In this document: one piece after another, positions 1,589-5,105 of the stretch | Numbering within the stretch: position 1 is the stretch's first letter | Layout: the number at the start of each line of letters is the position of its first letter | Origin: a bacterium | GTDB lineage: Bacteria > JAJVIF01 > JAGGVT01 | Direction of reading: 5' to 3' | Length of the DNA stretch: 9,287 nt | Assembly (NCBI GenBank): GCA_021157815.1 | Contig: JAGGVT010000111.1 | Location: 1-9,287, forward strand | The notes under the pieces: model-generated | The model's input: the letters and a program-made list of their open reading frames with translations, nothing else | The model's database searches: none | What the model was told of the DNA's origin: nothing | Made by a program: the position numbers and the translations under genes

Positions 1589-1620
1589 GTGCCTGAAATT
1601 TGGTGGTTAAAGGAAAGCAA

Positions 1621-3063
1621 ATGAAAACATCAAGTAACCTTCTGGAAAATTTCCACGCGGAAATAACAGTAACTATTCCCGCAGATGAACTAGAGAATAA
1701 ATTCCGCAAGAACATGGAAGAAGCTGTAAAGGATATTGACATACCCGGCTTCAGAAAAGGCAAAGCGCCGAAAAGCCTTATTGAAAGACAGGTAAACAAG
1801 AATAAACTCTGGAAAATAACTCGTGAGGAAACAATCGAGGATACTCTCACAAAAGCGGTCCAACAGGAAAAACTGAGTGTCATGTCAACAGAGGAAGTCA
1901 ACCAGGACACACACACTCCCGGTGAGGATTTCACCTATCGCGCAAAACTGCGTTTAATGCCTGAGATTCCGGATGTCGATTACAAGGAAATTCCCGTACG
2001 AATAGCCAAAATGGAAGTTACCGATGAACAGATTGGCTACAGTATAGAGAACCTTCGAATCAGCCTGGCGGAATCAACTCCCATAACCAACCGTCCCGCG
2101 CAGGACGGCGACTGGACACTGATTCAGATTGAAGGATATGAACTCTCCCGAATTAAAATACCCGGACAGTCGGACAAACCGAAAAATATGTTCCCACCAT
2201 CTCAATTAACTCTCCAAATCAACGGCGAAAGAGGAATCCCGTGGCTCGATAAAGAGATAATCGGGATGAAAACCAACGAGACCAAAACCGCCCATGTCAT
2301 GATGCCAAAGGACTTTATCAATCCTCCTCTTGAGAACGATACCGAGATTGAAGCGAAAATCCTGTTGCAGGGGATAGAGGAAAAGACACTGCCTGAATTG
2401 ACTGATGAATATCTGGTTGAAAAGAAAATTGCGAAAGACATGGATGAGTTGAAAAAACATGTCAGGACTTCTCTTGAACAGCAGGCGAAAGCGCTTGAGA
2501 ATGATGCAGCTGTGGCATGTATCCACGACTGGCTTGTTGAAAACATGGCGTTCGATTTGCCGGATGATATACTTGAGCAGAAGAAAGAGGAAATCACAGA
2601 GCAGCTAAACCAGGAATTCCATGCGCGCGGTGAGGACCTCGACACAATACTCAAACATGTTGATGAACGAGCAAATAAAATTCGAGAGAATATCGGCAAG
2701 CAATCACGCGAACTTCTGCAGCTTGATTTCATCATAACTAATATCGCGGAAAAAGAGGATTTATCAATCGAGCAGACTGAGCTGTTGAATCACATTCAGA
2801 TGGTTGCCCAGCAGTCTAACCTCAACAAAGCACAGATTAAGAAGTTAATGGAGGACACCAATTTTCTTACTCATTCATTCAGCACACTTCTTTCCCGCAA
2901 GGTAACCAATTTCCTTTTGAATCATGCGAAACGTGAATATATCGAAAAGGATGAGTTGCCCGCTGAAGGTGAAAAAAAAGACGAGTTAATTGCTGAATCT
3001 GAAAAACCTGATGCTGTTGACAGAGACGACTCCAAAGAAAGCGATTTGATTGTTACTGAGTAG
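1621..3063 (+). CDS. tig: Trigger factor (ribosome-associated chaperone, peptidyl-prolyl isomerase family)
   Basis: The 480-residue product matches trigger factor architecture. Trigger factor docks at ribosomal protein L23 beside the exit tunnel and shields nascent chains. The N-terminal ribosome-binding domain (about 1-115) carries the docking signature GFRKGKAP at residues 43-50. A divergent FKBP-like PPIase region spans about 150-250 (RPAQDGDWTLIQIEGY and a GIEEKTLPELTDEYL exit segment). The helical C-terminal chaperone arms cover about 255-440. Residues 441-480 are an acidic Glu/Asp/Lys tail. The ATG at 1621 is chosen because AAAGGA lies 6 nt before it; a TTG at 1600 in the same frame lacks such a site. 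Length is slightly above the usual 430-450 because of the tail. clpP/clpX, which often follow tig, are absent; a repeat-filled region follows instead. Confidence 0.93.
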   Translation: MKTSSNLLENFHAEITVTIPADELENKFRKNMEEAVKDIDIPGFRKGKAPKSLIERQVNKNKLWKITREETIEDTLTKAVQQEKLSVMSTEEVNQDTHTPGEDFTYRAKLRLMPEIPDVDYKEIPVRIAKMEVTDEQIGYSIENLRISLAESTPITNRPAQDGDWTLIQIEGYELSRIKIPGQSDKPKNMFPPSQLTLQINGERGIPWLDKEIIGMKTNETKTAHVMMPKDFINPPLENDTEIEAKILLQGIEEKTLPELTDEYLVEKKIAKDMDELKKHVRTSLEQQAKALENDAAVACIHDWLVENMAFDLPDDILEQKKEEITEQLNQEFHARGEDLDTILKHVDERANKIRENIGKQSRELLQLDFIITNIAEKEDLSIEQTELLNHIQMVAQQSNLNKAQIKKLMEDTNFLTHSFSTLLSRKVTNFLLNHAKREYIEKDELPAEGEKKDELIAESEKPDAVDRDDSKESDLIVTE

Positions 3064-3072
3064 CTGCCTGAT

Positions 3073-3151
3073 CGAATAACCTGTAAGGCTGAATACACGT
3101 CAGGTCAAATTAACCGTAAGGTCGAATAACCCGTCAGAACGAATAACCCCC
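3073..3151 (+). repeat. Degenerate short direct repeats (CGAATAACC-type)
   Basis: The word CGAATAACC occurs three times (3073-3081, 3123-3131, 3140-3148). Around it runs a loosely repeated 33-34 nt unit of the form AACC-GTAAGG-TGAATA-CGTCAG. The copies are imperfect and lie immediately after the tig stop. Function is unknown; this may be replication-slippage debris at the edge of the repeat nest. Confidence 0.4.
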
Positions 3152-3176
3152 GTCATTCCCGCGAAAGCGGGAACCC
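3152..3176. repeat. REP-like palindrome with GAAA tetraloop
   Basis: TTCCCGC (3156-3162) and GCGGGAA (3167-3173) form a perfect 7-bp GC-rich stem closed by GAAA at 3163-3166. This is the widespread intergenic repeat recognisable as GTCATTCCCGCGAAAGCGGG. It lies about 90 bp after the tig stop and could terminate or protect the tig transcript, although no T tract follows until 3178-3183. A second copy of the same core lies at 3490-3646 and is split by an insertion. Confidence 0.8.
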
Positions 3177-3404
3177 ATTTTTTCGGCGCTTCAATAAACT
3201 GTGTGGGTTATTTGCACCCCCGTAAAAAAAGGGGCATTCCCCGATAACGGGGTACGTCCACATGAGGTTTCAAATCTGATGTTATCAATATACTATGCTG
3301 TAATCCCTTATTTATACTGTGTTTATTCACTTGGTTGGGACATTCCCCTTTTTTTACTCAATCGAAACTCAACCCACACGATTTATTGAAGAGCCAAAAA
3401 ATGG
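3175..3404. repeat. Long inverted repeat, about 230 bp, with nested inner inverted repeat
   Basis: The arms at 3175-3209 and 3371-3404 are reverse complements over 34-35 nt with three mismatches and one indel. The outer core is CCATTTTTT/AAAAAATGG and the inner core is GTGTGGGTT/AACCCACAC. A second perfect 13-bp inverted repeat is nested inside (3222-3234 / 3345-3357, GTAAAAAAAGGGG and its complement). A small hairpin CCCCG-ATAA-CGGGG sits at 3239-3252. An open frame at 3201-3389 has no recognisable protein signature or ribosome binding site and is treated as non-coding. The right arm overlaps the GIY-YIG remnant, so the inverted repeat may be a partial inverted duplication of that gene's end. 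Confidence 0.65.
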
Positions 3405-3479
3405 AACAGGGCTTGGAAAATTGAGTTGATTGAAAACTTCAACCCGGAATGGAAAAACTTGTACGATAGTCTGGTTTAA
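3390..3479 (+). pseudogene. Remnant of a GIY-YIG endonuclease (C-terminal about 29 residues)
   Basis: Between an in-frame TGA (3387-3389) and the TAA stop (3477-3479) the frame reads KKWNRAWKIELIE and then NFNPEWKNLYDSLV. Small single-domain GIY-YIG (UvrC/homing-type) nucleases typically end in this way: a basic REKxLKKW segment, K-I-E-L-I-E, then NPEW-DLY. The catalytic GIY-YIG core, the Arg and the Glu are all missing and are not found upstream, so this is a dead fragment. Such genes are often seen beside the GGATTCCCGC-type palindromes, and one such palindrome starts about a dozen nucleotides after this stop. It is identified from the motif alone, over a short span. Confidence 0.65.
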
Positions 3480-3505
3480 GAAAGAAAAATGGATTCCCGC
3501 GAAAG

Positions 3506-3634
3506 GGGCTGTTGAAAAAGGGCTGAATGTAGGGGGTAGGTCTCTGTGCCTACCCTAAATATTGGCATAAATACAGGGCAACCACAGAGAGTTGCCCCTA
3601 CGGTCTGGGATATAATAGGCTTTTTCAACAGCCC
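3506..3634. mobile_element. MITE-like element, 129 bp, perfect 15-bp terminal inverted repeats, CGAAAG duplication
   Basis: The ends GGGCTGTTGAAAAAG (3506-3520) and CTTTTTCAACAGCCC (3620-3634) are perfect inverted repeats. The direct repeat CGAAAG occurs at 3500-3505 and 3635-3640, giving a clear target-site duplication. Because of end ambiguity it can also be scored as GAAA with 16-bp terminal repeats at 3505-3635. The element is too short to encode a protein, so it would be moved in trans by a transposase not in this window. Its interior consists mostly of the paired hairpins at 3529-3601. Intactness of both ends and of the duplication suggests a fairly recent insertion. Confidence 0.85.
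3529..3601. repeat. Paired hairpins with fully complementary 8-nt loops inside the MITE
   Basis: Hairpin one has stem GGGTAGG/CCTACCC (3534-3540/3549-3555) and loop TCTCTGTG. Hairpin two has stem GGGCAAC/GTTGCCC (3576-3582/3591-3597) and loop CACAGAGA. The two loops are exact reverse complements and both stems are 7 bp. Compared in the same orientation, the stems differ in three of seven pairs, all compensated, including a G:C to C:G flip. An outer pair, GTAGGGG near 3529 and CCCCTAC at 3595-3601, could also join the unit into one structure. Confidence 0.85.
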
Positions 3635-3707
3635 CGAAAGCGGGTTCTTTAGTCTGTCCTCAGAAATCCATTTTTCTTCTGATTCAAATAATCAACAACA
3701 TCAACTC

Positions 3708-5105
3708 TCAAAAAATTTCCCGGATTATTTCCTCAATTCCCCGACAAACAACGCTGTCATCCTCAGGGTACTTTTCCGGCAGGAGCACCGCGCAAGCGGC
3801 GTTTTCAGCAGTGAAATATTTTTTCGCGCATTCCTGTACCTTTTCCGTTGAAACTCTCTCAAGCTGCTTCATCACTATCTCAGCCGGCATCAGACTACCA
3901 AGATAAAGTATGCCAAGCGCATTACGCAGCATCCGGCTCGATGATGACTCCATCCCAAGATAGGTGCTGCCCTCGAGATAATCCTTCACACGCTTTAATT
4001 CCGATTTGCTGATCTTCTTATCCTTAAGCTTTTTCAGTTCAAGAAGAGTCTCCCGGACAAGTTCATTAAGTTTTTCAGGAACAGTCGCCGCGTCAATAGT
4101 CATAACACCCGTACCGCGCATTGGCGAATAGCCGGTGTCTATATCATAAACGAGCCCCAGTTTTTCCCTGATAGTCTGGAACAACCGCGCACCCATTCCA
4201 CCCCCAAGAACTGATTCCAGCAAAGTGAATTGATAACGCTCATCATCCTGCACAGTCGGTGCCGGAAACGCGAAGATCATCGTTGCCTGTTCGACATCCT
4301 TGCGATAAACCCTCACACCACTGTGCCATTTGGGTTTAAGAGCTTTCAATATATGCTTCTGTGGAATCTTTTTAATACAATCCGGTTCGGACTTGCTATT
4401 GGAAATATCCTGCCACCATTTCGCAACAGTCATGGCATCAACTTTACCCGCAAGTGAAATAACCAGATTTTCAGGCCTGAATCGATTTTCAAACCAATCC
4501 GACATTACCTTGCTGTCGATTTCCTCCAGCGTCTTTTTACTGCCGGCAACCGGTCTTGCCAGAGAGCTATTGCCCCACAGTTGCTTTGAAAACCTTTCAT
4601 ACAGAAATAGTGACGGAATGTCCTTGTTCATCTTAATTTCTTCAAAAACAACCCTGCGTTCCTTTTCCAAATCAGAAGGATTAAATCTTGGGTTAAGGAA
4701 CATATCCGCAATCACAGTGAATCCACGTTTGACATAGCGTTCGCCAATACGGCCGAACACGTTCATGAATTCCTTGCCTGTGGATGCGTTCAACACGCCC
4801 CCAACGCCCTCGAAAGCAAGCACGATTTTACGGGGCGATCGCGTTTTCGTTCCCTTGAAAATCATGTGTTCTATAAAATGCGTTATACCAGCCATGTTGG
4901 ACGGCTCATATCCACTGCCCTGCGCGATGAAGAACCCGATTGTCGCGCTGTGAAGCCATGGCATCTCCTCAGTTACAAAAAGAGGGCCATTCGGGATTTT
5001 CAGTACGACCGGACCACCCTGCACGCCTACAATTGTTCCAAGGCGATTGCGATGGATGTCCAGATCGCTTTTTGCCGTCCTGTCAGGTTTGGATTCAGTC
5101 ATCAT
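3708..5105 (-). CDS. M16 family zinc peptidase (insulinase/processing-peptidase-like)
   Basis: The 465-residue product has the M16 fold in order. The inverted zinc motif HFIEH is at residues 76-80 (H76, E79, H80), and the third ligand is E156 in RRVVFEEIKM, 76 residues after H80. The mid-domain signature FRPENLVISLAGKVD is near 209-223. In the second half, GGGMGARLFQTIREKLGLVY (301-320) is the conserved substrate-binding segment. All catalytic residues are present, so an active M16B-type peptidase is likely. No signal peptide or membrane segment is seen, which suggests a cytoplasmic location. It is encoded 108 nt downstream of pnp, the usual place for the ymxG/mpp-like member of the rpsO-pnp cluster. 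Two adjacent ATGs (5105, 5102) are possible starts, and an in-frame stop just upstream (5118-5120) rules out extension. The ribosome binding site is weak and no convincing promoter is seen in the gap. Confidence 0.92.
   Translation of the reverse strand: MMTESKPDRTAKSDLDIHRNRLGTIVGVQGGPVVLKIPNGPLFVTEEMPWLHSATIGFFIAQGSGYEPSNMAGITHFIEHMIFKGTKTRSPRKIVLAFEGVGGVLNASTGKEFMNVFGRIGERYVKRGFTVIADMFLNPRFNPSDLEKERRVVFEEIKMNKDIPSLFLYERFSKQLWGNSSLARPVAGSKKTLEEIDSKVMSDWFENRFRPENLVISLAGKVDAMTVAKWWQDISNSKSEPDCIKKIPQKHILKALKPKWHSGVRVYRKDVEQATMIFAFPAPTVQDDERYQFTLLESVLGGGMGARLFQTIREKLGLVYDIDTGYSPMRGTGVMTIDAATVPEKLNELVRETLLELKKLKDKKISKSELKRVKDYLEGSTYLGMESSSSRMLRNALGILYLGSLMPAEIVMKQLERVSTEKVQECAKKYFTAENAACAVLLPEKYPEDDSVVCRGIEEIIREIF

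Follow-up and report, generated by a model that had tools for sequence, protein, structure and literature searches.

IS1272, a member of the IS1182 family, is reported to insert into hairpins; in doing so it eliminates all or part of the stem-loop of its target and generates no duplication (PMC4923244, PMC5678879). A duplication of the loop has been drawn as a possible pathway, without an observation of such an event (PMC5678879, Fig. 13c). PMC4923244 and PMC5678879 both cite Siguier et al. (2015) for the targeting of palindromic sequences by some IS1182 members. Among the repetitive extragenic palindromes (REPs), the CGTC-1 group has been described without an association with a transposase (PMC3733652).

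The window analysed here, a stretch of 9,287 nucleotides, is contig C122 of a bacterial draft genome of 3.2 Mb (221 contigs, 91% complete). It carries, between the convergent genes for trigger factor (1600-3063, plus strand) and an M16 peptidase (3708-5105, minus strand), a 129-bp element at 3506-3634 (plus strand) that contains two internal hairpins and has no notable coding capacity. The inverted ends are perfect over 15 bp (GGGCTGTTGAAAAAG at 3506-3520 on the plus strand and CTTTTTCAACAGCCC at 3620-3634 on the minus strand) and are flanked by CGAAAG at 3500-3505 and at 3635-3640, both on the plus strand. The arms of the target hairpin lie outside these hexamers on the plus strand: CCCG at 3496-3499, which runs on into the C of the duplication, and CGGG at 3641-3644. 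Removal of the element and one CGAAAG yields ..GGATTCCCGCGAAAGCGGGTTC.., i.e. CCCGC-GAAA-GCGGG, and the same palindrome is found intact at 3156-3173 (TTCCCGCGAAAGCGGGAA). The preliminary description had interpreted the locus as a MITE-like element in the loop of a REP-like hairpin, and the ends, the flanking hexamers and the restored palindrome on which it relied are all present. Its statement that the duplication covers the tetraloop holds as well, with the correction that the hexamer consists of the loop GAAA plus the closing C-G pair. Only 5 bp pair at the insertion site (CCCGC/GCGGG) because the right arm is part of a variant repeat (CGGGTTCTTTAGTCTGTCCTCAG..), of which unfilled REP copies are present at other places in the genome (L007, L040, L045, L076).

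The intact palindrome belongs to an unfilled CGTC-type REP at 3151-3173 on the plus strand (CGTC-ATTCCCGC-GAAA-GCGGGAA) and exemplifies the target without the element. A CGTC-like head and a CC tail were present in 24 of the 28 intact copies read, and the REPs of this genome are arranged in opposing pairs, 60-131 bp apart. With a CGTC head, an 8-bp stem, a 4-nt loop, a CCA tail, a high copy number and opposing pairs, the target has the features of CGTC-1 REPs. Just downstream of the intact REP, at 3185-3396, lies another palindromic repeat (about 212 bp). It folds as a single long hairpin, is found again in about ten of the fetched stretches with 83-98% identity and is probably another MITE family. 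Upstream of the REP, at 3072-3145, there are short imperfect repeats (TCGAATAACC..), which are also found near the REPs of L047 and L119. A search of Rfam gave no match in window positions 2900-3900.

The element recurs in its own genome at 92-99% identity. Its end motif GGGCTGTTGAAAAA, allowing one mismatch, is found 117 times in forward and 122 times in reverse orientation in the 3.2-Mb genome and not once with the letters of the motif reversed, a recurrence far beyond chance. It is short and non-coding, has terminal inverted repeats, is present in dozens of copies and is bordered by duplications of 6-8 bp, as is typical of a MITE. Many contigs of the draft start or stop inside a copy (C7, C19, C26, C43, C47, C103 and others), which makes the element a main cause of assembly breaks and the copy count a lower bound. 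The MITE had no match among the plasmids searched, and a scan of genome contigs returned matches in the source genome of the query only; an orthologous empty site was not found among the relatives, a set with three genomes of the same class.

Loci with both flanks were extracted from the fetched stretches (70 in all) and, after four with poor ends had been dropped, 66 remained among the matches listed. Direct CGAAAG/CTTTCG duplications within CGTC-type REPs border 34 of these 66 copies and direct CATCCTG/CAGGATG duplications border 9, counted among the matches listed and with at most one mismatch per side. The CATCCTG group sits in a second repeated hairpin of the type GTGCTGCGGG-CATCCTG-CCTGCAGCAC. 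Further copies occupy unrelated hairpins: CACCATG-CTTTAG-CATGGTG in L121, the 13-bp hairpin CGGAACGTGGA-CAAGGTTG-TCCGTGTTCCG with an 8-bp duplication in L017, and GACTGGAGCGCC../..GGCGCTCCAGTC in L022. At a few copies (L013, L029, L134) there is no clear duplication or hairpin. The clustering of copies in GAAA-loop palindromes that the preliminary description had envisaged is therefore real, with 6-bp duplications and in either orientation, and it is accompanied by insertions into unrelated hairpins with duplications of 6-8 bp. Recognition of the short sequence CGAAAG by the transposase, independent of any hairpin, would account for the 34 direct duplications of this hexamer among the 66 listed sites. 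It is hardly credible in view of the other sequences duplicated at an apex (CATCCTG, CTTTAG, CAAGGTTG) and of the full-length relatives discussed below, which have no loop sequence in common.

The same base of the REP is occupied by elements of 128-451 bp that share the same ends. Relative to the interior of the element the REP is found in both orientations, with CGAAAG on both sides in 19 copies and CTTTCG on both sides in 10, and the second hairpin family is likewise divided, four against three. These data bear on whether the REP and the MITE move together as a composite unit derived from a single founding insertion. Such a unit would explain that the 197-bp surroundings of the window element match dozens more places and that most of these alignments extend from within one REP arm to within the other. 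However, both orientations and various lengths at the same base exclude a single founding insertion that was copied along with the REP. Several unrelated hairpins were used in addition, and REPs devoid of the element abound (67 places within two mismatches), all of which makes the composite unit very unlikely.

The frequency of hairpins at the insertion sites was determined with a strict test, in which a stem counted if its centre was no more than 1.5 nt from the insertion point and its score (pairs minus mismatches) was at least 6. Such a centred stem was found at 38 of the 66 sites among the matches listed, as compared to a rate of 0.37% in 20,000 windows placed at random in the same stretches. 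The other 28 of the 66 failed the test, among them the window's own site with its five paired bases. A binomial value computed for this test overstates independence because many of the sites belong to the two repeat families. Outside these families 10 of 21 sites pass, which is not independent proof because most of the ten are copies with inverted flanks, and inverted flanks pair with each other whenever they are joined. Beyond the two families, the single hairpins of L121, L017 and L022 and the full-length IS1182 relatives are the most reliable evidence. A looser folding statistic was dropped after 34% of the random windows had passed it. The position of the window copy between two convergent genes would agree with random intergenic insertion, the REP copies being those that survived selection. 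Arguing against it are the rarity of a centred stem in random windows and the base-exact placement at the apex, which selection for intergenic sites cannot produce, so that the probability of this explanation is close to nil.

At least nine copies have inverted flanks: in seven of them CGAAAG precedes the element and CTTTCG follows it, and in two the flanks are CATCCTG and CAGGATG. The same side is always outward (L025, L063, L089, L143, L144, L139:341, L112, L140), the CGTC heads of the REP copies lying outside, and the reverse inverted arrangement does not occur in the 66 copies among the matches listed. In L061 two filled REPs are about 460 bp apart with their heads outward. Perhaps the inverted flanks arose when two elements, one in each REP of a tail-to-tail pair, recombined and deleted the DNA between them, an event that would result in exactly the observed arrangement. 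Other possible sources are a chimaeric assembly and the correction of an imperfect palindrome.

The likely origin of the MITE is indicated by a relic of 993 bp (L099:1026-2018) with the same ends and a broken transposase between them. The left end of this relic is matched without a difference by the left 15 bp of the MITE and by its right 23 bp, read inward. A 148-residue fragment encoded by the relic matches the IS1182 profile of NCBIfam (NF033551) with E=2e-32, though the match falls short of the whole-protein cut-off because it is to a fragment; weaker Pfam matches are to DDE_Tnp_1 and DUF772. A second truncated copy of the IS1182 type is located in C56. The insertion sequence with the same ends postulated in the preliminary description thus exists, though in decayed form: the draft contains two broken copies (C90 and C56) and no intact full-length copy with these ends. 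The ends that it shares with a decayed insertion sequence of this family make the element most likely a MITE of the IS1182 family.

Full-length relatives permit a comparison with sites in other genomes. In an unrelated complete genome (G065), an IS1182-family element of 1762 bp is present in six copies. Each of them occupies a hairpin apex and has an exact duplication of 7-9 bp over the loop, and nearly all of the sites have the A and T tracts typical of terminators. Relatives on plasmids of Peptoclostridium acidaminophilum, Metabacillus, Priestia megaterium, Enterococcus avium, E. raffinosus (two records counted as one site) and Bacteroides fragilis are likewise inserted at apices, with exact duplications of 8-10 bp. 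The plasmid records had been selected by protein similarity before the sites were inspected. Taken together, G065 and the plasmids of Bacillota and Bacteroidota provide 12 independent sites, and all 12 are apices of terminator hairpins with exact 7-10-bp duplications. A more distant Priestia member was read as well and is not among the 12. The earlier idea of a transposase that may recognize hairpin or cruciform DNA gains strength from these sites. Apex insertion is not universal across the IS1182 family: an element of G347, of which eight copies were read, has neither a duplication nor a regular apex site, and the Sinorhizobium elements, which among named relatives come closest to the relic and have similar ends, show 5-bp duplications and no apex hairpin. 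The Sinorhizobium element with ends GGGGCTGTTGAAGAA (L260, L261, L263, L264; 5-bp duplications ACCCG/CGGGT) apparently occupies one conserved coding position in several plasmids. Two single IS1182-family elements were also noted, one seemingly in a CGTC-like REP with a 3-bp overlap (L182, G349) and one seemingly in a palindrome with a perfect 17-bp inverted flank and no duplication (L183, G170).

In the model that we consider quite probable, the MITE derives from an IS1182-family element whose transposase chose extruded hairpins and duplicated the loop together with the closing pair. The DDE transposase, when active, would have picked hairpins extruded as cruciforms or in single-stranded DNA; the ends of the element would have been joined across the apex, and staggered cuts would have caused the loop and the closing pair to be copied on both sides. 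We infer this order of cutting and joining, and an active form of the relic presumably moved the MITE. The predominance of CGTC-type REPs among the landing sites may reflect their abundance and their short, stable hairpins. A transposase that acts as a dimer might instead recognize the two-fold symmetry of a palindromic duplex in B-form, with no hairpin extruded. Every target is a palindrome whose dyad lies at the centre of the duplication, and the sequence of the sites fits either mode of recognition. Yet the target stems of the different families have no sequence in common, and the length of the duplication is not constant from site to site, even for one element (6, 7 and 8 bp for the MITE, 7-9 bp in G065), which is unusual for a fixed stagger and is better explained by cutting that depends on the loop. 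Duplex recognition is thus a possible but rather doubtful alternative. The variable length favours, without proving, the reading of a hairpin, and the enzyme would accordingly respond to a cruciform or a single strand and not to the symmetry of the duplex. DDE transposases are usually viewed as cutting duplex DNA with a fixed stagger.

It seems somewhat probable, judging from the sites collected here, that hairpin-apex recognition with loop duplication characterizes a branch of the IS1182 family distributed over several phyla, that terminators and REPs serve as its natural docking sites and that MITEs of this branch can load REPs. Docking in terminators and REPs suggests a route to a high copy number with little damage. 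As both the position and the duplication follow the geometry of the hairpin, structure-guided transposition by a DDE enzyme becomes directly testable, and the relatives direct attention to culturable bacteria (Metabacillus, Priestia) as sources of multi-copy systems.

The preliminary description compared the locus with IS1397 and ISPpu10, which was the wrong comparison; the fitting one is IS1272/IS1182. IS1397, ISPpu9 and ISPpu10 are members of other families (IS3, IS110), and their target is, as far as is known, the REP sequence, whereas the MITE studied here also enters unrelated hairpins. What they share with it is insertion into REPs (PMC1525189, PMC8450116). The REPs themselves resemble CGTC-1 REPs in head, stem, loop, tail and opposing pairs and differ in their link to a transposase, which is lacking in the published group (PMC3733652), whereas here they are docking sites for an IS1182-type MITE. 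Within the IS1182 family, whose profile NF033551 matches the relic, the members in G347 and Sinorhizobium behave otherwise. A report of the loop-duplicating mode as an observed event, or of a MITE that colonizes REPs, was not found in open-licence full texts; ISfinder may hold one. Closest is IS1272/TnSha1 of staphylococci, which has a transposase of the same family as the relic, inserts into hairpins without a primary sequence consensus, often transcription terminators, and uses both orientations at one target. The MITE agrees in its orientations and in its use of several unrelated hairpins. The two differ in the outcome: IS1272 removes the stem-loop partly or wholly and leaves no duplication, whereas insertion of the MITE has left the stem in place and duplicated the loop, as 34 REP copies and 9 copies of the second family among the matches listed show. 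Hairpin targeting by the IS1182 family was already known; duplication of the loop with retention of the stem appears to be new, and it supplies sequence evidence for a pathway that had so far just been drawn for IS1272.
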